Source: Chiridota heheva
Taxonomy: Eukaryota; Echinodermata; Holothuroidea; Apodida; Chiridotidae
DNA: 64,000 nt
NCBI GenBank assembly: GCA_020152595.1
Contig: JAIGNY010000132.1
Location: forward strand, 219,501-283,500
Reading direction: 5' to 3'
Below, piece after piece: positions 1,814 through 59,200 of the stretch; the stretch's first letter is position 1; every line of letters starts with the position of its first letter. The position numbers were made by a program, and so were the translations under genes. The notes under the pieces are model-generated. The model was not told where the DNA came from. It did not search any database and was given only the letters and a program-made list of their open reading frames with translations.

Positions 1814-2514
1814 CTTATGACGTCAACTGAAACACCTTTATAGTTAGATATTATTCCATAAGAATGTTCGAAGTAGTGGCAGAGGGCTTGGTGATGCTTC
1901 AGAGATGGCACCGAATGCTCACACAGCGTAAAAATTGTCCTGAGAATATAATTTTATATACTTTTTATTCTCAAGTTCTGCAATTTGTATCATTTACAAA
2001 TCCAACGTTTTAAATGTTTTTTCTTGAAGCTTTATTCTAAAATAAAAACGTCCTTGAACCTCAAATAAGACACATATTGCAGTCAATCAGTCAATGGGAT
2101 CCTACAGTACATTTGAACATTCGTTCCAAAATGTATATTCCTTTCAACTAACTTAGTCAGTGGGATTGATATGATTTTAAGCAATTTTCTGATACCAAAA
2201 TTACGCCAAAAAACGCTTATCTTCCGGGGCCTTGCCCCATGGGCACTTACAATGGACCTCGACCATTGACATGCTGGATTTGACAGTTTGACGCAATATA
2301 GCAATATTTAACATTTTGCTGCTATCAAAATTGTGAGAATTGCAATGTTTCCGGGCTTCGCCCCCTTCCCCCTTCATACGTTTGACACATTTAAAAGCAA
2401 TTCTCCAATATCAAAATCACGAGAAACATAGGGCTTTTTAAAGATGGAACCTGCCCTTTCAAACATTTAAAAACGTTTTCTTCAAGGAATATATATATAT
2501 TTTTTTATTTGAGA
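1814..2514. other. Intronic sequence with diverged CCGGGCTTCGCCCC-type repeat
   Basis: Between about 2150 and 2440 there are two diverged units, each with TTTTAAGCAATT/TTTAAAAGCAATT, a 'TACCAAAATTACG / ATCAAAATCACG' block and a CCGGG..TTGCCCC/TTCGCCCC motif. No gene seen. Confidence 0.45.
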
Positions 2515-11200: not shown

Positions 11201-14200
11201 AAGTTTGAACTTTTCAGTTTTATATCTCCTTCATGGAAGAGGATTTTTTCATCATTTTGTTCACCATCGTTTCTTGCAGGAGTGGTTTTCAGAATTTGCT
11301 ACTTTTTCTGTAAGAAATGTTGGCAGCCAACGAAACAGCAAAATGGAAATATATTTTTTTGCCTGATCATACATCTTGTGTATTTGTATAAAAATCTGCA
11401 TATCAAAGGCTTGAAACTATCAAATCTGTATAATGTCAATTTTTAATCTGATGGCCATTGTTTTGATATTTTCAAGGTTTCTGATATATCTAAAAGCTAT
11501 TCATTTGAGCTGAAGTTGCTTTTGCATATCCATCAATTTTGTATTCAAAGTTTAAAAGATCAGCTAGTAAATACCACTCTTTCCATTTATAGAAATTTGA
11601 GCTGCGTCTGGACTCAGGGTCAGAGGTCCGTCAAAGGTTACTTGAAGTACAGTCAATGGAAGGGTTAGCTACAACCATGGTGCAGGTGCAGAGTGGCACG
11701 AAGGTCAATTTGGTAGAGGTATGCTCTGAATGCTTCTTTTTTTCCACATGAATCGGATTCCTGGTTTAGTATCCCAACCTTTGTCACTAAGGGTTTTAGA
11801 GATTTTCAAATCCATGTCTTTGGATGAAAAATAATCTTAAAGTTTGAGAATCACAGTTGTAAGCCCCCAACCTTTGTCACTAAGGCTTTTAGAGATTTTT
11901 AAATCCATGTCTTTGGATGAAAAATAATGTTAAAGTTTGAGAATCACAGTTGTAAGCCCCAGCCTTTGTCACTAAGGGTTTTAGAAATTTTCAAATCCAT
12001 GTCTTTGGATGAAAAATAATCTTAAGGTTTGAGAATCACAATTGTAAGCCTTAAAGACGCAGAGCCCACCTTTAGAAACTGCAATTTTGATCAACTTTTT
12101 AGATCATGCATATTTTGTACACTTTCCTTTCAATTCCTATCATTCCAAGTATGTATTGATTGGAAGCTTAGACTTTAACGCTACCCCCTGTACTAGACGG
12201 GGTATGTCTTAGTGTTTGAATTTCTTTTAGTAAATTGTGCTATGAACAAAGAGGGGGTAGTTGCTCTTTGTGTTTTCAATTGAAAATAGGTGAAATGGCT
12301 TTTCTAATGGTATATTTCGCGTTTTACGATTTTTGCCAAATTTTGATCTCAAAAAAGGTGAAAATTATTATATTTTTCACAACTTTTGCCAATAAAAGAT
12401 ATTAATGATATGGGCAATCACAATTTGCCTGGATTTGGATGCATTAATGTCATTGTAAGTTCGTCACAGGTTTTCAGGCAAAAGCAAGGTCTGGAGATAT
12501 GGCAAGTAAGCTTTTGAAAAAAAATATTTTGGTTTTTTGGTTAAATTTGGTGCATTTAAAAATAATCATATTTCAACCCATCTTTTTTTTAACAATATTC
12601 AACATAACCCACATCATAAAGTTACATTTCTGAAAGAACTATTTAAGCTCTTTCAAATGATACCAGAATAATTGCTGTGAGCCTATATGACAAAGTAAAT
12701 TAGTTTTTGAAAAGTGCATGTCCAATCGGTCATGCCAGGACCACCTGGGTCACGAAGGGTTAACAGAAAAAGACAAAAACGTTGCCTCCACCACATATAT
12801 TTGTCAACAATCAATGTTCATCGTAATCTTTCACATTTGAGCCATGACAAGTTTACTCTTTATCTCTTTAATTTTGATATCTATGTACGTAGGTACCGAA
12901 AGGATCAAGAACCAGCCCTCCTGACTACTTCACTGGGCATTTCATCTCAACGTCCTCTCATGAGAGCATGCTCACAGACATGCTGCTGTCTCATGGAGTA
13001 GGGGACTTTTGTGTCGTTGGCCCAAAGGTTGGAGGAATTGATTATTAAAAAATCCTTTCTAGCATGTGATATTGTTTGCACTATTAGTTTGTTAGATTTA
13101 ATATAAGTTATATCCCCTTTGGTACTATTGATATTAGATGTTGACTTGCTACAAAACAACATAGATTAGAATGCGCAAACCCAATTAATCATCAATTGGC
13201 ACCCTTGGAGAGCTGGTTATCAATTTTGCAGCAGAGTTAAGTGCAAGAAGTAGTGTGTTACTGAAAGATGCATTCTTAAGGACTCCCAGCCATATGGACA
13301 GTAACAGAGCTTACTCAGCTACCACATGAACACTTTAACGACCATTCCCCAAGACCCACCCTGACATCAAACCCCCTTTATCCTCTCCTATCCACCGTAG
13401 AAACATCAACCTCCCCTTCAAATATGAGGTCCCATCACCTACATCAAGATAGGCCACACCAACTTTTCATACTTCATCTTTCACTGCCAACACCTTGTAA
13501 TAGATTTCCCCCTTCACACACTTCGTAGGACCTCTCCCAACACTATCACAAACCTCTTCCACAACAACCCACCTTCAAAACCCCTCTCTTCCCTTCAACA
13601 CATCAAATCCTAACAGCCTCTGATGCCCATACCCCCTTGCTACCCAGTCCCCCACTACCAACACCAACCCTCCCCTCTCACTTCCCTCACTTGTTCCTCA
13701 CATCTCCACCATTCACTTATTTTTAATATGATTTAACATTGATGGCTTCATGCTTTTGAGGTGACCCCACAAACCAACCTGCAATTGTTTAGATGTTCAA
13801 TATTTGGTCTACTTTCTGGTACATATTTAATGATCACTTTTAACCCTTTTCGAAGCATGTTTATACTGTGAATCCATCAAGCTTTTTTATTTTTTTACTT
13901 TAACCTATAAAGGCAAGAATGATTTAGAATGTGACTGTAATTAAGTTTTCTTAAAATAAGTGATACTGAAAGATTCTTATGTTCAAATCTTTTTCTTTGT
14001 TTATATCAATAAATTTTAATTTTACTTTCTAACAGGGATGTGGAAAAACTATCCTTGCTCATGAGCTGGCCGAAAGGTTGGGTTACAACATAGAAACTGT
14101 ACAGCTCTACCAGGTAACAGTGGTCAAAAGACGCAAGTCTTATCATAAGGTTGGGTTACAACATAGAAACTGTACAGCTCTACCAGGTAACAGTGGTCAA

Positions 14201-17200
14201 AACACACAAGTCATATTATAAGGTTGGGTTACAACATAGAAACTGTACAGTTCTGCCAGGTAACAGTGGTCAAAACACAAGTCATATCATTTGTCTAAGA
14301 CTATATTCATGATAGTGATCATTATTGGGATGTTAATTTTTAAAAGGGTAATGATTAGATCATTGTAATGATAGTGATCATACTACTGATATGATGATGG
14401 TTATGATAAAGATCATACTTATGATCGAGTGAATCGTGATAATGATAAATATGATGTAAATAGATGACAGTCAATGGAAAGAATGACATGACAATTGTGT
14501 TGAGCTATATGAAATGTTTTGAAATTGAGGATAGGGAAAAAAAGATTTGTATTGCTGTAAATGTGGTTTCTTTATATTCTGTGACAATTAATCATATTTT
14601 AAGCAGCTTGATATAAAGGTTGTAGAGGAGATAAAAGCATGGTATAATTTCTTGCATATATAGTGAAGAAAACATGAAATACACAATGTATATATACTAA
14701 TTGGAAACTTAATGAAGTTTTTGTTTCGTCACCAGATTTATGAATAATACTTATTTGATAAAGAGTTACATTGCAGCTTTATGTCAGTGGGCAGACATGT
14801 ATATGTTGTATGATAGAGAAAGTTGATGTCCTGTTCAGTTCAGGAGTTATGGAGTTCTGGAGGTGTTTGTATGAAATGACTGGTGTTGAAAGTCTACTGT
14901 CAGAGTTATGTCACACACTCACTTTCTTAAACAATTGTTTATGTGTTTTAATTGTGCAATTGAAAATAGTTTTAAAATCTATTCAGGTTCAGATTGTATA
15001 TTACAGTTATTTCACTATTGTTTCTAGTTTCCTTGTCTGCTCAATTATTCAAAGGTTGCTAGCAGAGACTTATTCACTAACATTACACACAGATGTTTGC
15101 GGACTGTGATGTTACTTGCAGTCTGATTTCAGTTATTTCTACACAAATTTAATAGTAATTTAAAGTTAAAAGAGTAAGGTTTTGAATACATTTGCCCCTT
15201 GTAATGTAAAATGAACATGGTTGGTTTATAATGTACAAACAGACTTACATTGACATTAAGAAACCATGACAGTTTTATTGACCAGTCGTGGAGCACTGGG
15301 TAGAGACATGGTTGAACCAATGAGCTTATCTTTTTGTTACTTTACGTTTTACGCAAGAAATGGTTATATTTCATATTTATGATATTTTGTACAGGATATG
15401 ACATCGAGGGATTTACTACAACAAAGAGCCACACTCCCATCTGGTGACACGACCTGGAGGTTATCACCCTTAGTAAGAGCAGCTCTTGATGGTAGCATAG
15501 CATTATTAGATGGTCTACACAGGGTCAATTCAAGTACACTGGCAGTACTACACAGGTGAGATGTTCAACTTTTGTTACTTAATATAACCAATTCCATTAT
15601 TATTCTCTTGCCATATAGTATCTTTGCCTTTCGTCCATCCACTCATCCATTGTTTAGGTACTGGAAACAATGGATTTCTGGCCTTGGAAAAGAATTCCAA
15701 CTATTTTTGTGTCTTGCTTTTTCTGAATTTAAAATGATACACTCCTCACATGAATAGCTTTGCTGTCATGGTGCCGATAAACCTTACCAAACCCTTTTTC
15801 TATAAAGATATCAAGTCGAGTATACTTTGAAAAGTCTTTTTTATTTTAATTCAGACTTGTGCACGACCGTGAATTGGACTTGTTCGATGGCACACGGTTG
15901 CTGAGGCATGATCGTTTTGAATATGTGAAGAAAACCTTGGGTCTCACGGAACAAGAACTTGCTGCGAGGTAAGCTTTTTTATTCCTCCATGCAAAGTGAA
16001 AATACCGTCATTCTTTTTGCATTGCATTAGCCACACACCTGTTTCCTTTCATGGGCATAGGAAGTGTCACCTTTCAGGGGCCAAGAGCATCTTATTTATG
16101 TGAAAAGATGTGTTTTCCTGTTTTCTTATTCCTGCTAATTGCTTTTAAGAATCTTTCAATCAATATTTAGAATGTTAATTACCGGGTATAGAAGGTATTG
16201 TAAATCAAAACCTGTTTCACATTTTTGTTTTGATTTGGTATGTACCTTTTATCTCCTATGTCAAAACAAAGTCAGCACAGGTATTGCAAAGTCTTTTTAA
16301 ACAGACCTTCCATGTTGTATTCCATTTTTATTGATCTCCTTCACAGGAAAGTATTCCCAATCCATCCAGCATTTAGGCTCATAGCTCTTGCGGAACCTCC
16401 AATCATTGGCAGTAGCACCCAGCAGTGGTTGACCCCTGAACTCCTGACCCTATTCATGTATCACCATTTGAAACCCCTCTCTCAAGTGGAAGAGTCTGAA
16501 GTTCTCTCGGGATTGGTGCGTTCCATTTTTACTTTTTTATTCAAATTTGATACAAACACTACTTAATTGTAAATCATTTCAAGAAGATAAAGGAAGGATG
16601 TGTCACCAAAGTGAAGCCCTTCTTGTGTTCAACATAAATTTCAGCTTCAATTGTTTTACAGATTAGAAATTAATTACCAAAAACATTATCTAAATAGCTT
16701 CAGATTCTGATTAATGATATTTTCCATATTTTGACGTGTTACAAGGGAGCAGGCATCTAAAAATAAATTGTCTTAGAATCAGTAACCATAAACAGTTTTT
16801 TGTGGTTTCTGAACTTGTTATTACCTCTGACGTGTTTAGTTTAGTTTTGGCTTTTGAGTCTTACTTACACATAGTAATTCATTAGGCAGTCTATGATAGT
16901 AATTCATTAAGCAGTTTATGATAGTAATTTACTAAGCAGTCTATCATAGTAATTGACTTAGCAGTCTATGATAGTAATTCACTAAGCAGTCTATGATAGT
17001 AATTCACTATGCAGTCTATGATAGTAATTGACAAAGCAGCCTATTATAGTAATTAAGTAAGCAGTCTATGATATCAATTGACTGAGCAGTCTATGGTAGT
17101 AATTGACTGAGCAGTCTATGATAATAATTCACTAAGCAGTCTATGATAGTAATTGAATAAGCAGTTCATGATAGTAATGGACTAAGCAGTCTGTGATAGT

Positions 17201-20200: not shown

Positions 20201-23200
20201 TCATGGCTAAAATAATATCCACTGTGAATTTCATCCGTGCTCGGGCACTGAATCATCGCCAATTCAAAGAACTTCTGGAGGAATTGGCTGCGAATTACAA
20301 AAGACGTTCTGTACTTTTCTCAAGTGAGATGGCTGAGTAGAGGGCACTCTGAAACGGGTGTGGGAGCTGAGAGAAGAAATTGCACAGTTCATGGAGTCGA
20401 AAGGAAGGCCTCTACTGGAATTCTCCGACGAACAGTGGCTCTGCGACTTTGCCTTCTTGGTCGACATTACTGAAAAGTTGAATCAGTTGAATGTGTCTAT
20501 GCAGGGAAAGGACAAACTCGTTCACAATCTCTTTGGTGATATCAAGTCGTTTGAAGCCAAGCTGCTTCTTTGGAAAAGTCAATTGAGAACAATGTTTTCG
20601 ATCATTTCCCTTGTCTGAAAAGTCAGAAAGAATTGAAGCCAGAAGGAGGAAGATACTCCACTGAAATCGAAAAACTCACAGCAGAGTTTTTCGGCGTTTT
20701 CAAGAGTTTCGGGCAAACGAAAATGACTTCAAAATCTTCTCAATGCCTTTTTCTGTTGATCCAGTGACAGCTCCCACGAATCTGCAGTTAGAATTGATTG
20801 ATCTGCAGAACAATATGGATTTGAAGGCACAATTCTTGTCAAAACCACTAGTCGAGTTCTACAAAGACTGTGTCTCTAATGAATCTTCTCCGAACCTTCT
20901 TCATCATGCAATGAAAACAGTGACGCTGTTCGGCAGCACTTATCTCTGTGAGCAATTCTTTTCCAAGTTGAAGTATTCAAAATCGAAGAACAGAAACTCT
21001 ATTTCAGATGAACATTTGGAAAACACTCTGAGAATCGCTTCCTCGCGGATGAAACCAGACATATGTGCTATTATGAATCAGAAGAAGCAGTTCCATCCTT
21101 CCCATTGACATGAATTGTACAGTTATACGTGAAATACAGTCTTTTTAGCCCTGCCATGTGGTTGTTTTAGGGATTTTCAATAAATTGTGGTTTTTTTTTC
21201 TTCGCATTTCTGGCCCCGAGCGTTCAAAAAATCTACATTTTGGCCCGCCGAATGAAAAGTTTCCCGGGCACTGCTTTAAAGAAACAAACATATGAAATAT
21301 TAAGAAATTTCTTTTTGAAGTTATTCCCCTAATTGTTTCATTTGACTTTTTGTAACTGTTCACCATAATTGATGAAGAAATTACTACTGTTTTTCCCGTT
21401 GAACTTAACAAAATATCTCTGTAATTTCCAACCATCCATGTGGACATAATTTATTTACAACCTCCTACCTGGTATGCACGAGGCCACACAATTTATCATA
21501 CTTCTAGCCGGTAAGAAGAAAGTTCCACTGTACCATGGCAAATGAAAGTGGAAAACTCATAAGTATATCTCAAATTCCTTTCTTAAGAGTACATAATTTG
21601 GTTTTTTCTTTTAGAATAGTTGTTGGTAGATTATTAATAGATAAAGAAAAAACAGTTCAATGTGCACTTTATTAAGTATAAATATCACGTCCCTAATACA
21701 TTAAGTAGTAAAAAAACAGCAGGGGGGGGGGGGGAGGAGGAAAGGGACGCACCTGATTCCATGTCCCTCGATAAACGCAAACTTAGGGCCGGGTATATGC
21801 ACCATACTAGCTCTTTTATTTAAGAATAGTGACAGTTGAAAAAATATGCTTCTAACAAAACTTGTAAGCCGTTTTGTATTAATTTTGATGTAGGAGTTAA
21901 TGCAGGTTTCCCCAATGTAACGGTCGATTACCGACGTTATCGGAGAGCAAAGGTCAGTTTGATTGCAGCATATTCTGGAACAGTACATTTAAAAAACAAA
22001 ATTACGAACATTAGAGATTACATACATATATTCAAAGAATGTTAGGCTATGACGTTTTCATGTTTGATTTTTTTCTGCATATGAGTTCTAAGGAGGAATT
22101 AGGTCAAGTAACGTGATAGGTTCACCTAAATTTATTGGGCTGAAGCCCGCACACCCCCTTCCCAGCTCTGCCGCCTCTGCTGATTGCAAGTCATCATTGA
22201 TGATAGGACCTAAATAAAATGATTAAAACCTTGATATGAATGCACAATTAAGTTTCGTGTAACTAGCATGACCACTTTAATATGAAATTCAAATTGGTTT
22301 TTCCCGTTTTTCTGTTTGTATTATATTCAACATTCATCATATTCATGTAACGATAATGTAACGATAATCGATCCTCTGGTCTAACCCAATTGTTCGTTCC
22401 CACGTTGAAAACAAAACAACTGTAACTTGATACAACGATAGAAAGCGGGATTAGTAATTTTCTCTTTGATGTTGCTACTGCTGCGAGAAAAATCTGGGTC
22501 ACTGCCAAACTGCGTTTAGAGCAGTGATACGGTCTAATCTGCTGCACCGTATAATTTAGTGCACTTGAAATAGCTCTTTGAATGATTTAGCCATTTTTAT
22601 TTTCACCCGAATCAGCACTGATGGGGCTGTTATGTAGCAATAAATATTCAAGTGTTTGAAGTTTTTATACAAAAACCCCAAATGATTGTTTATTGTTCGT
22701 AACTACACATGTTGAGAAACGCTATAGCGGCCACGTGTGAATTCCGCAACTGGGAAAGACAGATCACAAGGCGTGAGAATATTGCCGAGTTTTGAGCATG
22801 AGGAGGCTGTTACCTCATTAATTTATGTCAACACGTGCTGATTTTGTGATGCGTAATCTGGTCGTAAAAACAATAACAATACCCAGGCAAACATTTAATC
22901 CGTCTGTTAATACAATTATTAGTTTGAAATAATTGTTACTCTTTAAAGTAAATGTTAAAAGACATGGATAAATCTGTAATTTTTATCACAATAGGTGTAA
23001 AACGAGAATTTCTTTAATGTTTTCATCACACATTAGCAGACTCTTAAACGCTGGAATACTTTTAACGATAGGTCAAAGGTCATCGTTGCGTATGAATTTT
23101 CTTGATTTCTATGCATTGCTACCCTGGTTTGATTCATTGATTCTTGTGTGTTTCTAACCTTCAACGCAAATTCTTCTTTGCCAACTATTACTTTAGAATA

Positions 23201-29200: not shown

Positions 29201-32200
29201 ATAAGGTGAGGTCAAGGATGGGAAGCTGCGGATTGGTCACACGGAAATGCCGCTCTACAACCCCCAGAACAGAATGCTGGTCCCAGACACGCTCTTTTAT
29301 GAAAACCCTCAGGTATAGCGGCTTATTATAACCCTTTTTTTTTTTTTTGACTTCATTTGCATGACGTGTTAATTTATCTCAAAACCTACTAAAACTCAAC
29401 TCAAAATCTACTTAAACTTAAATCAGCAATGCATAAACCCTTGTGTAGATGAGCTTCATTTTTTAAGGATTAGTTCAGTGGTCAAGCAAGTCTATCTGAT
29501 GTGAAAGGTTTTCTCATCAAAATGTTGAATGGGGGGCATGATGAAGTTAGGAATTCTTAGATACAGCTCTTCTCCTTCAAACTTATAAAGATCAATATAT
29601 AATAGTGGATCAAAAAGATCAATAAATAATAGTGGATCAATAAGATCAATTAATAATAGTGGATCAATAAGATCAATAAATAATAGTGGATCAATAAATG
29701 ACAGTGGATTTGCTCTATTCATCTGATGTATATTATGCTTGAAAAATATTGAAATTAGATTAACTGTGGTGTTAATATTGATTTTCAGGTCATCCACCAT
29801 AAGTGCTTCAGGGCATTACAACTTTTGAAATCTTTTCCTTTGAAATTTTCTTTCTCGTCAGCACATGGCGGTGATGGAGGACATGTTGAAAGACTTCCGA
29901 CTAGGTGAACATCTTCTGCTCATAGGCAACCAGGGTGTGGGCAAGAACAAGCTTGTGGATCGGTTCCTTTATCTAATGAATAGACCAAGGCAATACATTC
30001 AGCTCCACAGGTACCTTCTGTTACACATATATCGCAAAAACCTAAAAATATGCTTATTTGATTTGGTGCATTTCTTCATGCCCAGGCATTATAATTATAA
30101 GTCCCTTCTACATCACCTGTTCTTTTCATTTCAAGCAAAAAAGAAAATTACAAGCAATTAGGATCTCATTTCCTTCATCAATCATACTATGTGTCTTATT
30201 GCTCTAAGGTTGTTATGGAAGGAGGCATTACATATCAATATGGTACCAGGTGGAGTACTTATTGTGTGACTGAGTTGTCATTATTTATATTAGGGATAAG
30301 TAATAATCATTTACTCCAGAAACCTTTGTGGATTGATTTGCTGAAACAAATTTTAAGCAACAACACATGTACTGTTTTGGCCTCTCTAAAACAACACTTG
30401 CAAAACTTCAGACTGTTCAGAATTCTGCTGACAAGCTTGAAGCTCCTTAATCCTGCTATGATCACAAATTACCAGTGCTACAATCACTCTGGTTGTTTCC
30501 TTCATCCTGCTATGATGACATATCACCAGTGCTACAGTCACTCTGTTTGTTTCTTCATCCTGCTATGATCACATACCACCAGTGCTACAATCACTCTGTT
30601 TGTTTCTTCATCCTGCTATGATCACATATCACCAGTGCTACAATCACTCTGTTTGTTCCTTCATCCTGCTATGATCACATATAACCAGTGCTACGATCAC
30701 TCTGTTTGTTTCCTTCATCCTGCTACAATCACATATCACCAGTGCTACAATCACTCTGTTTGTTCCTTCATCCTGCTATGATCACATATAACCAGTGCTA
30801 CGATCACTCTGTTTGTTCCTTCATCCTGCTATGATCACATATAACCAGTGCTACGATCACTCTGTTTGTTCCTTCATCCTGCTATGATCACATACCACCA
30901 GTGCTACAATCACTCTGTTTGTTTCTTCATCCTGCTACAATCACATATCACCAATGCTACAATCACTCTGTTTGTTTCTTCATCCTGCTATGATCACATA
31001 TCACCAGTGCTACGATCACTTTGTTTGTTCCTTCATCCTGCTATGATCACATATAACCAGTGCTACAATCACTCTGTTTGTTTCCTTCATCCTGCTACAA
31101 TCACATATCACCAGTGCTACAATCACTCTGTTTGTTCCTTCATCCTGCTACAATCACATATCACCAGTGCTACGATCACTCTGTTTGTTCCTTCATCCTG
31201 CTATGATCAAATACAGTATCACCAATGCTACAATCACTCTGTTGTTTCCTTCATCCTGCTATGATCACATATCACCATTGCTACAATCACTCTGTTTGTT
31301 CCTTCATCCTGTTATGATCACATATCACCAGTGCTACAATCACTTTGTTTGTTCCTTCATCCTGCTATGATTACAAATCACCAGTGCTACAATCACTCTG
31401 GTTGTTTCCTTCATTCTGCTATGATCACATATCACCAGTGCTACGAGCACTCTGTTTGTTCCTTCATCCTGCTATGATCACATAAAGCCAGTGCTACGAT
31501 CACTCTGTTTGTTCCTTCATCCTGCTATGATCAAATACATTATCACCAGTGCTACAATCACTCTGTTTGTTCCTTTATCCTGCTATGATCACATATCACC
31601 AGTGCTACAATCACTCTGTTTGTTCCTTCATCCTGCTATGATCACATATCACCAGTGCTACAATCACTCTGTTTGTTCCTTCATCCTGCTATGATCACAT
31701 ATAACCAGTGCTACGATCACTCTGTTTGTTTCCTTCATCCTGCTACAATCACATATCACCAGTGCTACGATCACTCTGTTTGTTCCTTCATCCTGCTATG
31801 ATCAAATACAGTATCACCAATGCTACAATCACTCTGTTGTTTCCTTCATCCTGCTATGATCACATATCACCAGTGCTACGATCACTCTGTTTGTTCCTTC
31901 ATCCTGCTATGATCACATAAAGCCAGTGCTACGATCACTCTGTTTGTTCCTTCATCCTGCTATGATCAAATACATTATCACCAGTGCTACAATCACTCTG
32001 TTTGTTCCTTCATCCTGCTATGATGACATATCACCAGTGCTACAATCACTCTGTTTGTTCCTTCATCCTGCTATGATCACATATAACCAGTGCTACAATC
32101 ACTTTGTTTGTTCCTTCATCCTGCTATGATCACATATCACCAGTGCTACGATCACTCTGTTTGTTCCTTCATCCTGCTATTATCACATATCACCAGTGCT

Positions 32201-35200
32201 ACGATCACTCTGTTTGTTCCTTCATCCTGCTATGATCACATATCACCAGTGCTACGATCACTCTGTTTGTTTCCTTCATCCTGCTACAATCACATATCAC
32301 CAGTGCTACAATCACTCTGTTTGTTTCTTCATCCTGCTATGATCACATATCACCAGTGCTACAATCACTCTGTTTGTTCCTTCATCCTGCTATGATCACA
32401 TATAACCAGTGCTACGATCACTCTGTTTGTTCCTTCATCCTGCTATGATCACATATAGCCAGTGCTACGATCACTCTGTTTGTTCCTTCATCCTGCTATG
32501 ATCACATATAACCAGTGCTACAATCACTTTGTTTGTTCCTTCATCCTGCTATGATCACATATCACCAGTGCTTCAATCACTCTGTTTGTTCCTTCATCCT
32601 GCTACAATCACATATCACCAGTGCTACAATCACTTTGTTTGTTCCTTCATCCTGCTATGATCACATATCACCAATGCTACAATCACTCTGTTTGTTCCTT
32701 CATCCTGCTATGATCACATATCACCAGTGCTACGATCACTCTGTTTCTTTCTTAATCCTGCTACAATCACATATCACCAGTGCTACAATCACTCTGTTTG
32801 TTTCTTCATCCTGCTATGATCACATATAACCAGTGCTACGATCACTCTGTTTGTTCCTTCATCCTGCTATGATCACATATAACCAGTGCTACAATCACTC
32901 TGTTTGTTTCCTATAAAGCAGCTGCCAATGCATGTACAAGTTGCTTCTCTGATGTATAATGCTCAACACTCTCTTGTTCCTGGATACACTCAGCCTCTTT
33001 GATATTTGGCTGGTAAACATCATCCAAACAAAAGAACTTTTGTTGTCTATGGCCCCTCATTTTTGCTGCAGCCTCTCTTTGGAGTGATCTACTTTATTTG
33101 ATTAACAATGCACCATCATCTTTTAAATGTCTCTTGAAACCCACTTTTATTCATCAACTAATGACATCACAAAGCTGCATATTCCCTTGAATAGCAATGC
33201 CTTTAAATTGAAAATCTGTAAAATGGTCAATATAACTGGTATTAAGGGGGGTGATGTAAGGTGATAATATTTTAGGGCTCCTGGTAAACCTTTAAAAACC
33301 TTTAAAACCTTTAAAAACCTTTATTGACAAATTGAACCTTTGTTTCTTTCAAAATAACCTTTAAAAATCTTTATTTTCAAAGTAAAGTAAAATAAATGAT
33401 TCGAGTGCCAAGGTTTTAGCTTCATTGGTAAGTATACACATCCATTTAATAGCATATCTGTTCTCAACACACATTTAAAAAGTAGCAGGACCAAAATAAA
33501 AATTTCCAACTTCACGTAAGTAATGGACTTTTGGCACCACCAACTGCCTTTTGCCCCAGAATATGCTCATTGTATGAAAATTTATTCCATGAGTTAACCT
33601 TTATAAACCTTTTTATTTAAATCCAAAACCTTTAAAAACCTTTATTTCAACTTTTCCAACCATTTAAAAAAAGAGTCACCGGGAGGCCTGTAATATTTTC
33701 TTTTTGGTTCTGATGCTATAGCATATGGAACCTATGCAGTCATACTGGCGTGTGTATGGGTATGTGTATGTATAGTGTGTCTGTGACAGTCAGCTTGGAA
33801 ATACGATATCTCAAGAATGACACTGGATGCATGTCATAAATGGTACACAGATAGTTCATGGTCTGTATATGTGGCCTATTGGTTTTAGTGGTGATGTCAT
33901 GCATATCAATGAGTAGGCAGGGCTTCAATAAAAAATCTTGAAATGCTAATAATTTAACAACTACATGTCTCTTGTAATTCATATTTGGTATGTTTATGTT
34001 GTTAGCTAGTTGTTTCATATTCATGGTGTAAAATTGTTGAATATCATTTACATATACATAGTGGGCAGGGCTTATATGGTTTTGCTGAAAAGAGCTTGTA
34101 AGCACAGTAATTAAGGACAATACATTGGATGCAGCACAGGTCATATGTGGTACACAGATAACTCAATATTCATTTGTGTGCCCTATCGTTTTTGGTGGTG
34201 ATGTCATGCATATTACAGAGTTGGGGAGGGGAGAAGGAATAATGTACAAAACTGAAAAATATTGTCAATATATTATTATTGTCAGCTATTGTGTGCATGC
34301 TTGTGTTGTTGACAGGTTCGATCACTAATATGCATGCCTTAATATAAAAATGCTCCAAAAAACACATTTCACCCATGTCGTATGTGATACACAGATGATT
34401 TATGGTCCGTATATGTGACCTATTGTTTTGGTAGTGATATCATGTTGGTGGGTTTTTATGTAAAATTCTTAAAACAGATGTGCAACCCTATGCACATTTG
34501 GCATCATTCTTGTAATGTTGTCAACTGATTCTATTTTATTGATATGCATGGTGGGCATGGCTTATAAATATATGTTATTCAGCATATATCATGATATGCG
34601 ATGACAGTTTGAACTTGAAAATCAACCAACAGTGAAACACTGCATCAGAACCACTAAACATTTTGGTTTTCCGGGTTTTTTTTCTTCAGAGACACAACAG
34701 TGCAGACGCTGACCCTTCAACCCACTGTGCAAGATGGTGTGATCATTTATGAAGATTCACCTCTAGTAAGTCATGGCGTCTTCCCCTCACGGCACTGTTT
34801 ACAGCTTTTTATGCTCTATGCTTTCTTGTGGTAATGGATGTAGATGAACTATCACCTTGGTTGGTGTAGTTTCCATTTTTTACACATTAAGCTGGATTTT
34901 TGTTAGTTGTCACTGTTTTACACATTTAGATGCACTCTTTTTAGATATAAATTTTAGATATTTAGCTGAGCTCTCATTTAGTTCACAGTTTGACACCATA
35001 GTCCATGCTTTTTAAGATTTACACAGTTAGCTGTGTTCTCTTTTAGCAGTCCGGGAGCAACCCAGAAAATAGGCTACTTTAAAATACCCCCCCAAAAACG
35101 GTCCTTTTTACAGGCACGTCATGTGATGTGGTTCTAACATGCACTAAAGCTAAAGGGTGTTTACATTTTCGCTCCGGATTGTTCAAATTTCCATTGGCTC

Positions 35201-38200
35201 CTGTGAAATTTTACAACTGGTAGGATATAAAAATTCAAAAGATTGGCTGCTGCCTTTTGAAGTTCACTGTCGCCTTTATTTTGCAATCATCACCTTTGTT
35301 TACACCTTTTTAACACTAACTCCCCGACCTACCTTCACCCTGCCACAGGTTGCCTTACCTGTATTGACCTGTCTATCTGTTCCCCCAACCTCCTCCCTGA
35401 TTGTTTTAGCTGGGGAGTCACTGCTGACCTCTGTGGTAGTGATCATTACCCTCTTCTTATATACTCCAACCTTCAAACCCCCACTGACCACACCCCAAAT
35501 TGGAACCTCGAGAAGGCTGACTGGCCCCTTTTCGAAACCCTCTGTGACTCACACTTCTCCCCCCATCTCCTCGAGGATGAGGATCCCATGTCAAACTTCA
35601 GTAATATCCTTATTAACATCGCCACCTGCTCAATTCCCAAAACCTCCAAACCCCCAAATCATCCCTCCAACCCCTGGTTCTCTGATGACTGCAAAACCGC
35701 CATCAAGAACAGGAAAAGAGCCCTCAGGAACTTTAAAACTAACCCAATCACCCATAACCTCAACCTCTTTCCCATCAGCCGTGCCAAGGCCAGATGCACT
35801 ATCGAGGACAGTAAAACTAACACTTGGAACAACTTCATCTCTTCTCTCACCACCAACACCCCCACTAAGAAGATTTGGAGAATGGTTAACAGCTTCCACG
35901 GCAGAGTGGGCAAATCTCCCATCTCCCATCTCTCTCAGAATGGTGACCTTCTCACCGCAAAAAAGGACATCGTTAATCATTTCGCCGCCACTTTCAGCAA
36001 CATCTCGTCCTCGACCAACTACTCCAATGCCTTCAAAACCAAAAAAGCTTCTGATAAAGCCCGGAAAATCACTTTTCCTTCCGACAACTCTGAAAGCTAC
36101 AACGCCCCTCTCACCCTTTCTGAATTAAACCTAGCCATCCACGACGCTGGCTGTACCTCCAAGGGCCCAGATAACATTCCCTACCAGTTCCTGAAACACC
36201 TCCCCATCAAGGCCACCACTACCCTACTCACAATCTTCAACAACATTTGGACCTCACACTCCTTTCCCCCTATATGGAGGACAGCTATTGTCATCCCTGT
36301 CCTTAAACCGGGGAAAGACGGTACCGACCCCTCCAGCTACAGCCCCATCGCCCTAACTTGCTGTCTCTGTAAAATTATGGAAAGGATCATTAATCAGAGA
36401 CTAAACTGGTTTCTTGAGACCAACAGAATCCTTTCCCCTGACCAAAGCGGCTTCCGAAAACGTCGCAATACCCTAGACCAGTTAATTACGCTCGACACCG
36501 CTATCAGGGAATCCTTTGCAAAAAAGGAACACCTCATTGCCATATTTTTTGACCTTGAGAAAGCTTTCGACACTACTTGAAAATAAGGCATTACCTGCAA
36601 ACTTCACACCATCAGCCTCAGAGGCCATCTCCCCATCTTTATTCAAAACTTCCTCTCATCCAGGCAGTTCCAAGTTCGCATTGGCCACACCCTCTCCAAC
36701 CTGTACCCCAAAGAAGAGGGCGTCCCCCAAGGCAGCATCCTCTCTCCCACTCTCTTCAACCTGAGCATCAATGACATCGCGGATAACCTTGGCCCCAACA
36801 TCAAACGTACCTTATATGTGGATGACTTCACCATCTTCTACTCCTCCCCTAGCTTTCCTATTGTTGAAAGTAGGCTCCAAATCAGCCTCGACCTGCTGCA
36901 AGACTGGAGCAACAATAACGGTTTTAAATTCTCCAAAGACAAGACAGTCTGCATGCACTTTTGTCATTGCAACAACCTCCACCCCAACCCGAACTTTGTG
37001 CTCAATGGTAATTGCATCCCAAAAGTTGAACACACAAAGTTCGTAGGTCTAACTCTAGACCCTAAGCTTACCTACAAGCAATACATCACCAACCTGAAAC
37101 TGAAATGCAACAGCTCCCTCAACATCCTCAGACTCCTCTCCAACACCACTTGGGGTGCGAACCGCTTTGCTCTCCTCAAAATTTTCAGGCTCACCATTCG
37201 TGCCAAGCTTGATTATGGCAATATTGTCTACTGTGTCGCTCACAACTCATACCTCAACCACATCAACACCATCCAAAATAAAGCCCCCAGGCTTTGTCTA
37301 GGTGCTTACAGGACCTCCCCAATCACCAGCCTTCATGTTGAAGCCAACGAACCCCCCTTTCTACTTAGATGTAGAAAGCTTAGCCTATCCTATGCTTTTA
37401 GGGTCCTCACCAACACCCAGAACCCTGTTTACAACCTCATTAGGTACCCCAATTTCTTCACCCTCTTTGATAGGACTAAAACCCTATCCCCTTCCTTCAG
37501 CTTACGCATTAAATCAGACCTCTTCCATCTCGGCATCAACCCCACCACTCTCGACACCTTCTCCTGGCCCACTTTTCCTCCTTGGGCCACCCCCCTCCCT
37601 TCTGTCCACCTGGGCCTCTCCACTCATCACAAAGCTCAAACCCATCCTAACCTCTTTATCAATCTCCACAACCAAGTCTAAGACCAACTCTCAAATTACA
37701 CCTCCATCTATACTGATGGGTCCAAGAAGGGCAACAAGACAGCTGCTGCTGCGGTCATCCAAGACATCACCCTCAGTAGCAGACTTCCCGACTACTCATC
37801 CATCTTTTCAGCCGAGGCTAAGGCCATTCTCCTTGCCCTTAACTTTATTGAGTACTCCCCGCTCAGCCACTTTGTTATTTTCTCTGACTCAAAGGCTGTT
37901 CTTACTTCTTTACTCAACCTTAAATAGGATAACCTCACATGCCACCTCCTCCTCCGCAAACTCCTTTCTCCCACCCTCTGCAGGAAAAGTATTCTTTTGT
38001 TCTGGATACCCAGCCATGTTGGCATCCCGGGTAATGACAGGGCTGATGCAGCCGCTAAGCTTGCCCTCACCCTCCTCCCTGCCCCTTTTCCCAAAACCCC
38101 CTCTGACATCAAATCGCTTATCGCTTCCCTTGTTCGGGACCGCTGGCAAACCTCATGGAAGTCCCAAATTGATAACAAACTCCATGTCATCCAGCCCACA

Positions 38201-41200
38201 ATTCCGATCAAAGCCACCATCAACAACCTCTCTCGTATTGACAACGTTCATATTACCCGTCTTAGAATTGGTCACACTCATCTCACCCACTCCCACCTCT
38301 TTATTGGCTCCCCCCAACCCCTCTGCAAAAATTGCCATTGCACCCTCACAATCCATCATGTTCTCCTTGCTTGCCTCCTGTACAACCTTCCCAGAGCTTC
38401 CCTTACTCCCTACAACTCAATTGCTGAGTTCTTCCAGAAAAATCCTCTGGATAAGATTATCTCCTTCCTTCATTATGCCTCCCTCTACGACCATATTTAA
38501 TTCTCCTCTTCCACCCCCTCTCTACTTTGTTTTTGTTTCCACCATGCACCTCCCCTCACGATCACAGCTTTCTGACCTTTTGTTCTTAAATTTCTCTTAT
38601 TCTCCCCCTGTATCCTTTCCTTCCTACCTCTAGAATGATCTGACCTCTCAGGCACAATTTGACCTTAGTTGTTGTGGTGTCGTTAAGCCATCATCAAACA
38701 AACACACCTTTTTAATTATCTTTTATAAACAAAAGGCAGCGTCCAAAAGTTTGAATATTCATATCCTACCAGGAGTTCAAACTTTCACAGTAGCCAATGG
38801 AAATTGGAACAATCCAGAGCGGAAAATGTAAACACCCATAAGCTTTAGTGCATGTACGAACAAGGTCAGGTGACGTGCTTGTAAAAAAGACCCTATTTTA
38901 GGGGTATTTTAAAGTACCCTATTTTTTGGGCTGCTTCCGGGCTGCTCAGTTTCAGTAAAAAGTTGCTAAACCTTTTGGCAATCTTGTAAGATCTTGTAAG
39001 TTTCATGTCTGCTCTTAAGCAGTGATATAGAATGGATTGTTTATAGAATAGAATAAACTTGATTAAACCCACGAGGGGTAATTCACTGCTCACTTTAAAT
39101 TCAAATAAAAACAAATATAACAGGTATAAATACATGAGTAAAACATGAAATATGAGGATTGAAATTAAAAAGAGGAAAAAAATTCATATAATATGCAAGA
39201 ATAATGAATATCATGCTAGAATATTATATGTAAGAATAATGAATATCATGCTAGAATATAATATGTAAGAATAATGAATATCATGCTAGAATATAATATG
39301 TAAGAATAATGAATATCATGCTAGAATATAAAATGTAAGAATAATGAATATCATGCTAGAATATAATATGTAAGAATAATGAATATCATGCTAGAATATA
39401 ATATGTAAGAATAATGAATATCATGCTAGAATATAGTATGTAAAAATAATGAATATCATGCTAGAATATAATATGTAAGAATAATGAATATCATGCTAGA
39501 ATATAATATGCAAGAATAATGAATATTATGCTAGAATATAAAATGTTGTGTTAAAGGGTCTGAAATAAGAAGCAAGAGCTAACGATTGAAATTTGAATTG
39601 TGTAATTTTATATATTTGAGGAATAATTGATAAAGAATGTCTATTTGTTATGGCCACTGACAATCTCATTCTGCCTCTACGTGGTAGCACCATTCTGTCT
39701 AAATAATGGCGAAGTGGGTGGACATCATCGCTCATTCATTATCTTAACAGCAATAAAAGCGGTCAGGTAGTAAAGTGTTTGATGTATTTGACGTCTTTCT
39801 TCAAAGGTGAAAGCGGTCAAGTATGGGCATGTGTTGGTGGTGGACGAGGCAGACAAGGCTCCCACTCATGTCACCTGCATCCTCAAAGCATTGGTTGAAA
39901 GCGGAGACATGGTTCTTGCTGATGGGAGGAAGATTATTCAAGGTGTGTGTGGTAGAGATGAAGCATGGTAAAAGATTGTTCAAGGTGGGTGCGGTAAAGA
40001 TGAACTATGGAAAAAGATTGTTTAAGGTGGGTGTGGCACAGATATACCATGGTTAAAGATTGTTCAAGGTGGGTGTGGTACAGATTAAACATGGTGAAAG
40101 ATTATTCAAGGTGGGTATGGTACAGATTAACCATGGGGAAAGATTGTTCAAGTGGGTGTGGTACAAATTAAGCATGGTGAAAGATTGTTGAAGGTAGGTG
40201 TGGTACAGATTAACCTTGGTGAAAGATTGTTCAAGGTGGGTGTGGTACAGATTAACCTTGGTGAAAGATTTTTGAAGGTGGGTGTGGTACAGATTAACCA
40301 TAGTGAAAGATTGTTGAAGGTGGGTGTGGTACCGATTAACCTTCGTGAGAGATTGTTCAAGGTGGGTGTGGTACAGATTATAAATGGTGAAAGATTAAAA
40401 ATTGTAGCCAAGTATAGAGCTGGTGCCCAAAGTAATATTTTTGTCAAAGTAAGAAACTGGTCAGAACACCAATGGTTGAATTTTTGGTCATGCTTCAGGC
40501 CTCGACAGATATTTTGCCACCCACTTGCCAGGTTGACGAGTTGACCCTAATATTGGTCTCCAAATACAAACATTTGCCATCAACTTAAGTCAAGATGTCA
40601 GTCATTTTAAGTGCAAGAATTCTTTCCCCAATAACCATTTGAAGTGATTATAAACTGGTCTGCATTTCATTAAAACATAAGAATCTTGTCATTTATATAT
40701 TTACAAATTAAAGCAAAATAGTTAACTTTGAGTGTGTTTTTACTTTATCTGCTGCAAAATTATCAAAAAAGTCAGGTTTTGACAGTTTCACCAAAAACTT
40801 TTCATATTTAACCCCCTTATGTGATATTGATCTTTGACATTAATTGTAAGGGAAGAGAGATTAATATGTTGTTGACAAAAACCTGATAACTGAAACCTCT
40901 TCTTTGCATTGAATTTCTTCTAATTCATAATAGCTCACTGACCTGGTGAGTAACATTTGACAGTAAGTCACCAGAAGCAATTTGACATTCACCAATGGTG
41001 AGCTGGTGACTATTTATTAAGGCTTAATAGCAATGACATACTTAGTACAACCTCATCCAACTCTTTTACCATCAATAACTTGCAGTATCTTTTATACCCT
41101 TACACTACTTCATTATTTTCCTGTTTATTGCACCATACATTCTTTCAGTTAGTTTGATGTAATGTGACCTCTCTGGTACAATGTGACCTGGTTGGGGATG

Positions 41201-44200
41201 TTCTGACAAATCAATCTGTCTTCTTGTCTTGCAGGAAATCAAAGCATGAGTTCTACGGAAAACATCATTGTGACTCACCCTGACTTCAGGATGATGGTCC
41301 TTGCCAATCGCCCAGGGTTTCCGTTTCTTGGGAATGACTTCTTTGGCGCACTGGGTGTGTATACATTCTCTGAAGACCATCGTTGAAACAGCAATAGCCA
41401 TATTCCCTGAACAACCATAAAAATACCAAATTTTCTCATCAAATTAGGATGCAGAAATTGAGCATATTACAGCTTTTTGAATATTCTTGTGTAAATATGG
41501 AAATTTTAAAAGTAAATTTGAAGTCACACCCTAATGAAATTAATAGTTTGAAAAACTGTCTTATCATTTTAAAGACTGAAATTTAAGCAATGAGGAATTA
41601 TGTGAATATCTTGATTATGCCACTTAGAATAGTCGTGCATTGCACTCTATATAGTGAGATCATGTTTTTGAAGAGTATAAAGAGTATGACAAGTATGTTG
41701 ATTTAATGTTCTGCTTTTTTCGATGCTCACAAGTTATGAACCCCAAGTATACTGTTAATATCAACATTCTTTCCCTCTAATTGCCTAACTCCATTTCAAA
41801 AAAGCTTGCTATATGCAATTGTACACTTTATAGATGAATGGAATTGTGACTGACTATCATGTACATTTTGTTTGCTTAGTGGTAGTGTTCACTTTTCAGC
41901 AGGTTCAATTCTAGATCAGGTCATACCAGAAACTATTAAATTGCTATCTGTTGATTCCTTACATATATTAGATATAGGATATAAACAGGGCGGTAGTGTA
42001 AAGTTGAAGTGGGAAAAAGGGAAAAACATGAACATTTTCTATATTTTCTTCACAGGTGATATATTCAGCTGTCATGCAATAGACAACCCAGATATGGAGT
42101 CCGAACTAGCCATGCTGAAGAGGTACGGCCCACACGTACCAGACTCGGTGCTGAGGAAGCTGGTGCTGGCGTTTGGGGAGCTCAGAGACATGGCAGATCA
42201 GGGTCTTATTTCATACCCGTATTCCACTAGGGAGGTGGTCAACATGGTGAAGCATTTGGAGGTAAGACCCCATGGGGATGTACTTAAAGATCAGGTAGAG
42301 GCAACATGCGCTATATTGTTTAAGAATATCCAGTAAAACCATCAAAATAGGAACAATCCCCCTCTGCTACAATTGCCTATTTTATGGCTTTTCAGTTTTT
42401 TGGTGAGCATACGAAGCATAATGCGAACCTGTGTAATGGCGATTTCGTCCATCGGGCCATCAACAGTTTTTCCTGAGATTTCCTCAGAAATGTTAGTTTT
42501 TTGAGAATTTCTCTAAAAATGTTAGTTTCTTTAGAGTTCCCCAGTATAAGTTAAAAGTTTCTTCAGATATGTTTGTGTAAGGTTAGAATTTCCTTACAAG
42601 ATTTTAAAGTTTTTCAGAGACACTTAAGACAGATTGAAGACTCATTTCCTTCAGAAGTTGAAAAAGATAACTGTAAGATGATATAATTATCCAATATTTT
42701 TCAGAGATCCTCAAGCGTCTCTCTCGTAGCACTGGAGATTTAAAATTCTTCAAAATATTTGGGCACCAACAGTTGTATCAGGCATGATTATTCAACTCTG
42801 TGTTTGTTATTATGGTCATTTGCATAAAGTTGCTACAGTATATGAACTGCCTAGACTTTTTTTATTTAGTATGCTCAGTCAGGGAGTGTGACAGGAAGTG
42901 ACTGCATATGGACATAGGGAGGGATGCCATGTGGGACATGGATGGTGGCCATGCGGGACATATGATAGAATATATACCATGTGGTATACACCAAGGGCTA
43001 TATCAGGCATATTTTTTTGACTCCGCCTTTTTTTCTTATTCAACAAGTAATTTGCATATAAGTTACTATATGAACTGACACTTTCATACATAGTATGCTC
43101 AAGAAGGGACTGTGATAGCTAGTATGAGACTTCCTATGGAGCCTATGGGATGTCATGTGGGACATGGGGTGGTACGCCATGTGGGACATGGGGTAGGATG
43201 CCATGTGGAATGCCATGTAGGATATATGGTGGAATGCCATGTGGGTACATAGGGTGGAATGCCATGAGATGGGATGTCATGTGGGACATGGGATGTCATG
43301 TGTGATATGGGGTGGGATGTCATGTGGGACATGGGGTGGGATGTCATGTGGGACATTGGTAGGGATGTCATGTGGTTCATATGTTTGAATTAATGTGGGA
43401 CATACATGTAGGATGGGATCCATGTGGGACATAGAGTGGGATACCATGTGGGTCATAGGGGGGATGGTATTTACCGTTCTAGTTTAAAATGTTATGTCAA
43501 TTTGTGATATATGAAAAGGCATATCTAATTTTCGTATGTAAAACCTTTGTTTTGTAATCATGAGCCACAGTAACTTTAGGACAGCAGAGGATTCTAACAA
43601 AAGGTTCTTGGAGTTTTCCCATACTCCAATCAGCTTGTAGAAGGAAAAGACAATCTTATCATTTTCAAAGACTGAAGTAAAAGTCGTCTTCCTGTTCATA
43701 CATCACAAATTTTGCATATGTAAAAAAATTCCTAAATTCTGATCAGCTATTAAGCCGCAGTATGTCATCCAAATTGTAAGGCCGTTCTGCTCAGAATTTC
43801 AAACACATAATAGTAAGTAAAACAGAATTTTTTTGTAGCTGTCGCATGTACATTCAAAGCCATTGTGATACCCAGATACTTAGCTTTTTGTGATTTTCTT
43901 GAGTACTGCAATTAAAATGTTCAACTAGCAAATGTATATGCTGATGTGAGGAAGATCAAATTTTGAGTCTTTATACATTTGTTTATTGTACTGAAATGTT
44001 TTCCACATCCCTTATGTCTTACAGGAATTTCCATCTGAAGGTTTGGCAACTGTGGTGTCAAATGTCTTTGATTTTGACTCTTATAACAAGGAGCTACAGG
44101 AACAAGTCACGTCCACTCTTCACAAACATGGCATCCCTGTTGGTGCCCAGCCTGGCAACGTACTACTAGCACAAGAGTGAGCACAACAAGCCAATATATT

Positions 44201-56200: not shown

Positions 56201-59200
56201 AGGGGATTTGACATATTTACATCAGCTTTAGATAAGATGATTCCATTACTTTTTGTACAGTGTCAAATTTAGGGGATGTGACATATTTACATCAGCTCGA
56301 TAAGATGCAAGCATAAGATTTCATTACTTTTTTTACAGTCAAGTTTAGGGGCTCATTCCGCTTTGGTGTTAGGTCATATTGTAACGCCACCTACTGCAGG
56401 AGCATCCCCCACCCTAGGGGCTGAGCAGTGGTGTGGGGAACTGAGTGGTTGGATGCCACTCAGTGTCAGGAGGTGAAGGTTACGGGAGGGGGAAATACAC
56501 CAGAGGAGCTACAAATACCCCAGCAAGTGCGTTCTCACCCCAGGCATGGGAAAGGTGGAGGAGGCTTAAGCTACAAGGTACTAACTACTGCCAAAAAATA
56601 TAAAGAGAGAGCAGGATATACATTACGCAAAGATAAATAGCTTTGGTTTCAAACAGTACTCCTTGTTTCTATCTTTTAATGGTTCGTCGGTAACATAAAC
56701 ATGTCCCCACAGGGCTTAAAGAAAGGGTCGTTCCTTAAGGGAAGCTTTAAAATTCTAATTTAGTTGTTGGAGTTTCTTTTTTGCAGCAGACTGAATAAAA
56801 GTAAGCTCGGCACAATATGAGATACATAAATAGCACCCAGAATACAATTTGATAAATATATATAAAGTTTAAATTGTCCCAGGTACGGCTCAAATGAGCG
56901 TTACAAAAAGAACAAACTCGTAAATAATCAGGAAGCACCTAACTTCCTCAAATGTACTTCAAAGGAGAAGAGTTTAATAGACAGAGGCGGAATAAGCAAG
57001 AAATGGTTCCCTCTTCAAGCAGTTTTGTTGCAAAGATAGCTTTAATAAATAAAATCAATACCTCCTAAAGAAGCTTACCGGGGCATGGGCGTTACGGCTT
57101 ACGAAACTAATAGTTCATGAGACCGACATCAGAACTTTGGGGTCATCGATACCAAGGATACCTGGCTACTTTCCCCATGAGGGACACCAACCCTCTATAC
57201 CAAGAAATCCTTTAAATACCTGGCAAGGGGGAATTTAGAAATTGCCAAGTTTCATGCCCTTTGTTTCCCCTACAGGAACTGTTCAAGCCTAGTGCCGACT
57301 TTAGGGTTAACAAATAACAGTGTATCAGCCAGAAAAGGGGAGGGAAGGGCCTGGCATCCCTAAATCTGACCCTGATCCTAGACTTTGCTCTCCTTAAAAG
57401 AAACGAATAGAATTAAGATACAGTGCACTTTCATTGAGCTGTAATGCCACATGTCTTCGGCAGCCTCTGCCTGTCAAGCTGTTTCTCAATTCAAATAAAA
57501 AACTACACCCTGTACCTAATCTGCCAAAATTCTCTCTTAGAAAATACATAACCTCTATATTCAAATGCTAGGGAGCAAGTGTTTAGGTGCTCCCAAAAAA
57601 GAAATGCAAGTTAACTACGTTTACAATGGAAAGAAATTTGCAGTCTGGACACTGGCTGTGTTGACTGCTGGGACACCTGGACCTGCACAAAATGAAAGCA
57701 GAAGAAAACATGTTAATGAGTATAAGACCTAGATACCTGAACTTCTGTTCCTGCATTCGAGTATCACATGGCACATAAAATACCGGGCTTATTTACATCA
57801 AATTACAGTTACAACGGGAAATAAGCTAAGTGACAACCTCAGGGCATCACAATATCCTCAGATAAAAAAATTTGCTTGGAAAAATTGACATCTATAATGA
57901 AATTTCCAGTGCAGAAGGTAATAGTCTATTATTTGAATTGTAGAGAAGTTCTTGAAGTGTCAACACAGTGAAGAGAAACTTGTAAGGGAGAGTTCTACTG
58001 TACGGGTAAAATGTTATTTTTTGTAATTGTTTGCATTTCCTCCGTAGGGTCCTGCATATTTGGCTGTGAAGGAGTATCCACTGGAGAGATTAGAAGCAAG
58101 GTCATTGCAGTTCACAGAGCAGGTCACTGCATGGTCACTTCCATTAAGTGAAATGAACTCACCGGTCAATGTGGCAATCTCACAAGGTAGTTAACATGCT
58201 TTGTGTCATGGGGACTTAGGAGGAAAGAGGACACAGCCAAGAGACATATCATTGTCTTACCTGTTGAATGCAATGTATATGAGCAACATCTGTATAGAGA
58301 ACATTATTTGTAGAGGGCCAACATGTGTATAAGGGAGAATATGTGAAGAGGGTCAAAGTGCGTATAAAAAAAAGGGATAAGGGTGTGTAGGTGACCGGAG
58401 GAGGTAGATAAGTAGATGATGGGTTGGGGATGGGTAGATGAGTGGAGGGTGGATGATGGGTAGGTGAGTGGAGGGTGGATGATGGGTAGGTAAGTGGAGG
58501 GTGGATGATGGGTAGGTGAGTGAAGGGTGGATGATGGGTAGGTGAGTGGAGGGTGGATGATGGGTAGGTGAGTGGATGGTGGATGATGGGTAAGTGAGTG
58601 GAGGGTGGATGATGGGTAGGTGAGTGGAGGGTGGATGATGGGTAGGTGAGTGGAGGGTGGATGATGAGTAGGTGAGTGGAGGGTGGATGATGGGTAGGTG
58701 AGTGGAGGGTGGATGATGGGTAGGTGAGTGGAGGGTGGATGATGGGTAGGTGAGTGGAGGGTGGATGATGGGTAGGTGAGTGGAGGGTGGATGATGGGTA
58801 GGTGAGTGGAGGGTGGATGATGGGTAGGTGAGTGGAGGGTGGATGATGGGTGAGTGGAGGGTGGATGATGGGTAGGTGAGTGGAGGGTGGATGATGGGTA
58901 GGTGAGTGGAGAGTGGATGATGGGTAGGTGAGTGGAGAGTGGATGATGGGTAGGTGAGTAGAGGGTGGATGATGGGTAGTTGAGTGGAGGGTGGATGATG
59001 GGTAGGTGAGTGGAGGGTGGATGATGGGTGGATGAGGTGAGTGGATGACGGGTAGGTGAGTGGATGATGGGTTGGTGAGTGGAGGGTGGATGATGGGTAG
59101 GTGAGTGGAGGGTGGATGATGGGTAGGTGAGTGGAGGGTTGATGATGGGTAGGTGAGTGGAGGGTGGATGATGGGTAGGTGAGTGGAGGGTGGATGATGG

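Follow-up and report, generated by a model that had tools for sequence, protein, structure and literature searches.

In the holothurian Chiridota heheva, an exon of a VWA8-like gene runs straight into a minisatellite of about eleven 42-bp copies, the first of which holds the end of the exon together with its genuine splice donor. Very probably this array is a tolerated, drifting minisatellite of the "mirage" kind that was founded at the donor by chance and that gives rise to minor, leaky splicing into stop-containing products. Unless noted otherwise, positions refer to the window, i.e., the whole stretch of 64,000 nucleotides that was analysed (positions 219,501 to 283,500 of contig JAIGNY010000132.1).

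The exon and its array

VWA8 is a mitochondrial AAA+ protein. The gene under study, which we take to be VWA8-like, was traced by tblastn with human VWA8 as the query. Its exons follow one another in order over about 172 kb, beginning 27.5 kb before the window and extending to window-relative position 144.6 kb, and 39 of them are listed, some exons possibly missing and the exon ends outside the window being approximate. The gene starts 27 kb or more before the window, and the exon numbers 5 and 15 used in an earlier sequence-only reading of this DNA are thus relative to the window. The exon of interest here, exon 15 of that reading, is located at 39807..39942 on the plus strand (77% identity in tblastn), ends in GATTATTCAAG|GT in phase 1 according to a frame check and encodes the Walker-B part of an AAA_5 domain. 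When joined to its neighbours, it matches AAA_5 (PF07728) with an E-value of 3e-26, a result that is independent of the tblastn query. It splices in frame (...GRKIIQ|GNQSMSS...) to the next exon at 41235..41355 on the same strand, for which tblastn and a splice check give the acceptor ttgcag|GAAATC and a restored reading frame.

TRF finds a tandem array with a period of 42 bp at 39930..40396 on the plus strand (11.1 copies, 86% matches), the score of 661 leading us to reject a chance origin of the repeat. The first copy starts 13 bases inside the exon: unit 1 covers 39930–39971, and 39930–39942 are the final 13 coding bases, after which the donor follows, such that the array spans the exon-intron boundary and its remainder is intronic. 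The sequence-only reading had described about eleven copies of a 42-bp unit after exon 15, the first of them composed of the exon's last 13 bases and its donor, and both statements hold. Eleven units can be cut from the array; all are 42 bp long except unit 6, which has 41 bp and lacks the G at position −1 before the donor GT. To the left of 39930 and to the right of about 40396 the 42-bp periodicity fades. Units differ from one another by 5–24%, and mean identities are 80–82% for units 1–3 at the exon edge and 84–90% for the others, small differences that fit internal homogenization of the array to the exclusion of the boundary copy.

A search of the 1.1-Gb assembly with the 42-bp unit, in which very common words and simple repeats were skipped, returned four matches, all of them within this array. 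Within the limits of a search that skips very common words, the unit is therefore local and non-dispersed, and a dispersed minisatellite inserted at the exon was rejected. The 41 matches listed include no second copy of exon plus array. The exon end codes for a conserved stretch of the AAA_5 domain and is thus most likely older than the array; since, in addition, the unit was found nowhere but in the array, an origin of the array from the exon end and its donor is most likely. The earlier proposal of an array founded on the donor of this exon thereby finds support.

Dispersed repeats flank the exon and its array on both sides. Among the matches listed, 39600–39736 is 80–92% identical to at least 31 places, and 40496–40800 is 68–75% identical to at least eight places plus one of 85% over a short piece. 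Three remnants of mobile elements are also present in the window: a broken non-LTR-type retroelement at 35588–38500, with RVT_1 at 35588–36577 and, below the curated cut-off, at 36818–37678; a broken copy of a non-LTR-type retroelement at 2500–5400, judged by eye from similar ORFs and containing an ORF (4564–5406) without any Pfam match; and the remnant of a hAT-like transposase gene at 19392–21105 that encodes a Spin-doc zinc finger and shows a hAT dimerisation match that is weak and falls short of the curated cut-off.

Genuine donor, decoy donors and the shared stop codon

The genuine donor, AAG|GTGTGT, has its intron positions +1 to +6 at 39943..39948 (plus strand), keeps the frame into 41235 and avoids the stop codon of unit 1. 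Ten decoy donors, one in each of units 2–11, are spread over 39985..40367 on the same strand, with their GT at 39985, 40027, 40069, 40111, 40152, 40194, 40236, 40278, 40320 and 40362. Nine of the ten read AAG|GTRGGT, while the decoy of unit 6 is weak. Counted over all units, CAAGGTGGGTG is present in exact form in 4/11, AAGGTGGGT in 8/11, AAGGTRGGT in 9/11 and AAG|GT in 10/11, unit 6 retaining the GT without the preceding G. Many but not all units therefore carry the splice signal, and all ten downstream copies keep the GT.

Duplex energies with the U1 5′ end were predicted. The real donor reaches −8.1 kcal/mol, nine decoys lie between −11.0 and −12.2 kcal/mol, and unit 6 follows with −6.8 kcal/mol. 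For comparison, 18 of the 20 exon ends of the window were scored, 6 misplaced ends were left out, and the remaining 12 genuine donors, all placed cleanly at GT, range from −5.4 to −11.1 kcal/mol. The real donor is thus middling, and nine decoys match or exceed the best of the genuine set. As these nine out-pair the real donor with U1, pairing by itself would not predict that the first donor is used predominantly. Reading on from the real donor, an in-frame TAA is met in unit 1 at 39969..39971 (plus strand), 27–29 bases past the donor, and translation places it in the products of all ten decoys.

The sequence-only reading fares well on most of these points. TAA is indeed reached within the 30 bases it had given, splicing at any of the downstream donors would truncate the protein as it had stated, and by the one measure applied, U1 pairing, nine array donors are better than the real CAAG|GTGTGT, as it had argued, while that of unit 6 is weaker. 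It went too far in ascribing CAAG|GTGGGTG to most copies, four of eleven having it.

Among the 42 circular windows of the 42-bp array, that of the donor 9-mer varies least (2/90 vs 31/330, P = 0.025, uncorrected), which is a weak hint at something beyond neutral drift. RNA structure that might hide the decoys was not detected: the array region folds like its shuffles (z = −0.62), 26 of 100 shuffles being equally good. A scan for bacterial promoters and terminators returned none; these are bacterial signals and have no bearing on the array.

Further arrays across splice donors

The sequence-only reading had named exon 5 as a second case in the same gene. This exon is situated at 14036..14113 on the plus strand (tblastn, sequence) and ends in CTCTACCAG|GTAACA; TRF and alignment reveal three copies of a 73-bp unit at 14074..14290 (plus strand), the first consisting of the last 40 exon bases plus the donor. 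The donor CAG|GTAACA is intact in each of the three copies, GT being present in 2/2 downstream ones. Not only is the second case real, but a third one is found in the gene at −16718 to −16441 relative to the window (L013; contig C124 near 202.8 kb). There, at 16.7 kb before the start of the window, an exon ends in ATTACCATATAAG|GTAAGT, and its last 13 bases together with GTAAGT make up the first unit of a 21 bp × 13 array, the later copies of which have kept GT in 5/12 and lost it in 7/12 cases. The fourth case stems from another gene (L079; C1206:44786-45005, from base 52), where 30 bp × about 5.6 lie across the donor of a myosin-head exon ending in ...LDLLLG|GTGAGT, and GT is kept in 2/4 whole downstream copies. 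The GT losses in the latter two arrays indicate that donor retention is no rule. When the four arrays are pooled (summed by hand), donor positions are off consensus in 31/252 and other positions in 67/686 instances, so donors have neither been preserved nor purged overall. Two further arrays of the VWA8-like gene begin just past exon ends without overlapping them, at 75912–76014 (L016) and 115845–116302 (L020) in window-relative positions, 15 and about 29 bases beyond the respective exon end.

Frequency of donor-straddling arrays

For the window, manual collapsing reduced 85 TRF rows to 41 intervals, and merging these gave 36 arrays, which cover 13,390 of the 64,000 bases. The largest are a 26-bp minisatellite of about 105 copies at 58429–61124, in the intron after the exon at 58048, and a 53-bp × 46 array at 30444–32908. 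Two arrays have an edge in one of the 20 exons, where 1.2–2.2 are expected (P(≥2) = 0.36–0.66); nulls were random, rotated or restricted placement, and P varies with the null and the length cut-off. For the whole gene, 79 arrays and 39 exons were considered, and an array was counted when it started less than one unit inside an exon and extended past it by one unit or more. Overlap is seen at three donors and at no acceptor, the expectations being 0.68 and 0.69. The probability of three or more in total amounts to 0.15–0.17, and that for donors alone to 0.028, the latter for a direction picked after seeing the data and in a gene that itself drew notice through two of its array cases. Arrays at acceptors, with copies between branch site and exon, may perhaps be less tolerated, but zero against 0.69 is no evidence for this.

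Outside the VWA8-like gene, the sample comprised all 22 PRPF8 and all 14 P-type ATPase places listed as well as 20 of the 68 listed myosin-head places, the latter not a strict top 20 because one higher-scoring place was passed over; exon ends were taken from protein or profile matches. One of 56 sampled donor sides is straddled by an array, about 1.0 being expected at the whole-gene rate. This is L079, the single case among the 20 myosin-head matches, while no donor-straddling array occurs in 20 PRPF8 donor stretches and no array lies within 60 bases of any core at the 16 loci with flanks (2 PRPF8, 14 P-type ATPase). Several sampled stretches have no clear junction (e.g., L056, L058, L063, L067, L068, L072, L077, L082 and L088), so that fewer than 56 donors were truly seen. 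One of these stretches, L058, holds a weak 10-bp × 2 match (score 33) at a place with no visible junction, which was left uncounted. The outside sample gives no support for enrichment, its size being compatible with a two- or threefold excess.

Taken over window, gene and this small outside sample, the scan of junctions against chance that the sequence-only reading had suggested finds arrays not commoner at junctions than chance predicts. The non-random link between arrays and donors implied by that reading gains no support from two cases versus 1.2–2.2 in the window and from 1/56 versus about 1.0 outside VWA8. A special association of arrays with donors is not supported, and the position of the arrays relative to exons fits random founding.

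Origin and fate of the array

In the scenario that we consider highly probable, a local 42-bp duplication would have happened to straddle the 3′ end of the exon and the 5′ splice site in a minisatellite-rich genome. The array would then have grown to about eleven copies and would have been partly homogenized, presumably by slippage or unequal exchange. In the first copy, exon end and real donor would have retained their position, with the later copies becoming decoys downstream in the intron; because the first copy keeps both exon end and real donor, the coding exon is intact. Splicing presumably proceeds mainly at the first donor, and some leakage to the array donors would yield stop-containing message that is likely subject to nonsense-mediated decay. 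The precedents from amphioxus and human ABCA7 make such a small leakage to decoys, removed by decay, the expected behaviour here. What speaks against chance founding is that one gene harbours three donor cases versus 0.68 expected (P = 0.028).

Two readings would assign the array a role in setting VWA8 output, and we consider both improbable. According to one, donor-straddling arrays are recurrent in the genome and are tolerated because the decoys sit downstream of the real donor, the array at 39930 setting VWA8 output via its copy number and stop-containing splicing. According to the other, the array acts as a splicing valve, in which strong decoys divert transcripts to a decayed stop form and copy number again determines output. 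A valve of this kind would profit from the strength of nine decoys (−11.0 to −12.2 kcal/mol) relative to the real donor (−8.1 kcal/mol) and to the best of the 12 genuine donors (−11.1 kcal/mol), from the one early stop common to all decoys and from the low variability of the donor 9-mer in the 42-bp array. The reported data on ABCA7 point in both directions: a longer VNTR goes along with lower expression and more skipping of exon 19, but unit retention stays at about 2% irrespective of VNTR length in the results cited (PMC5954066). The valve is also at odds with the two other donor arrays that have lost GT in 7/12 and 2/4 of their later copies.

Recruitment of U1 to introns can aid exon recognition or block premature polyadenylation, and the copies could accordingly have been kept as repeated U1-pairing sites that support recognition of the exon or guard against premature polyadenylation. 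With nine strong U1-pairing sites packed into about 380 bp immediately after a middling donor the arrangement is suggestive, but donor positions decay as fast as others when the four arrays are pooled, and we consider this explanation very unlikely. Even less probable is a transitional stage of intron gain, in which AG/GT-bearing sequence is duplicated in tandem. AAGGT is indeed present in the units, and mirages have been proposed as a source of new introns in the account cited (PMC3087553); however, the protein-compatible acceptor at 41235 is not part of the array, the coding sequence requires no exon from any of the units, and unit 1 contains a stop that precludes coding use of the array. 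No new intron uses duplicated AG/GT copies as its donor and acceptor, the splice from 39942 to 41235 keeping the frame. Finally, tandem arrays are error-prone in assemblies and one assembly was seen, but differences of 5–24% between units and a deletion private to unit 6 go beyond what a stuttered assembly would create, leaving an artefact hardly credible.

The locus offers a natural test case for the choice of the spliceosome among eleven near-copy donors, nine decoys out-pairing the real site with U1, and this strong pairing makes it a sharp test of the small leakage expected. If the array donors were used, copy number would be a heritable dial on VWA8. Our observations furthermore suggest that junction-overlapping arrays need no special cause in a minisatellite-rich genome.

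Comparison with known systems

The kind of array described here is already known and has been published for cephalochordates and one human gene. Mirage minisatellites, first described by Canestro 2002 as cited in PMC3087553, have been reported in amphioxus for Adh3, TnC, the globins BflGb6 and BflGb9 and PGBD5 (PMC3087553, PMC3902484). According to these reports, they leave regular splicing undisturbed (PMC3087553, PMC3902484), and the boundary copy is excluded from homogenization of the units (PMC3087553). The array in the VWA8-like gene resembles them, as far as they are described there, in units that span the exon-intron boundary, in splice signals carried by many units but not by every one and in a boundary copy outside homogenization; its 42 bp are bracketed by the reported unit sizes of 10–160 bp. 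It differs by residing in a VWA8-like gene and by having about eleven copies, nine later ones of which are above the real donor in U1 pairing. Moreover, undisturbed splicing is reported for amphioxus, whereas the present array is known from the DNA of one assembly. With an assembly of 1.1 Gb, larger than the genomes of Branchiostoma, it may extend mirages to another animal group. In searches of this assembly, COX1 gave no match although the control was recovered, and mollusc-type hemocyanin gave none, its control staying silent as well.

In human ABCA7, the exon 18 donor is part of a 25-bp VNTR, and retention of one unit in 2 ± 1% of transcripts leads to a premature stop; in the data cited, the share of retention is independent of VNTR length while skipping of the next exon depends on it (PMC5954066). 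The likeness is close inasmuch as units begin at the exon donor and use of the next unit's donor causes a premature stop: here, too, the donor of the exon lies within unit 1, and later units offer donors. By contrast, the ABCA7 unit is C-rich as described and starts at the GT itself, whereas the 42-bp unit takes in 13 coding bases, and the ABCA7 VNTR is reported as polymorphic from about 12 units to kilobases with measured skipping of the next exon, whereas our array is a genomic sequence. The MIR137 VNTR was set aside as a parallel, since splice donors are not said to lie in the repeat in the part of the report cited (PMC6692358). With intron gain by tandem genomic duplication, the Rogers model as named in PMC3087553, our array shares an AG/GT-bearing duplication within a gene but, unlike the product of that model, it sits in an existing intron and has made no new one.
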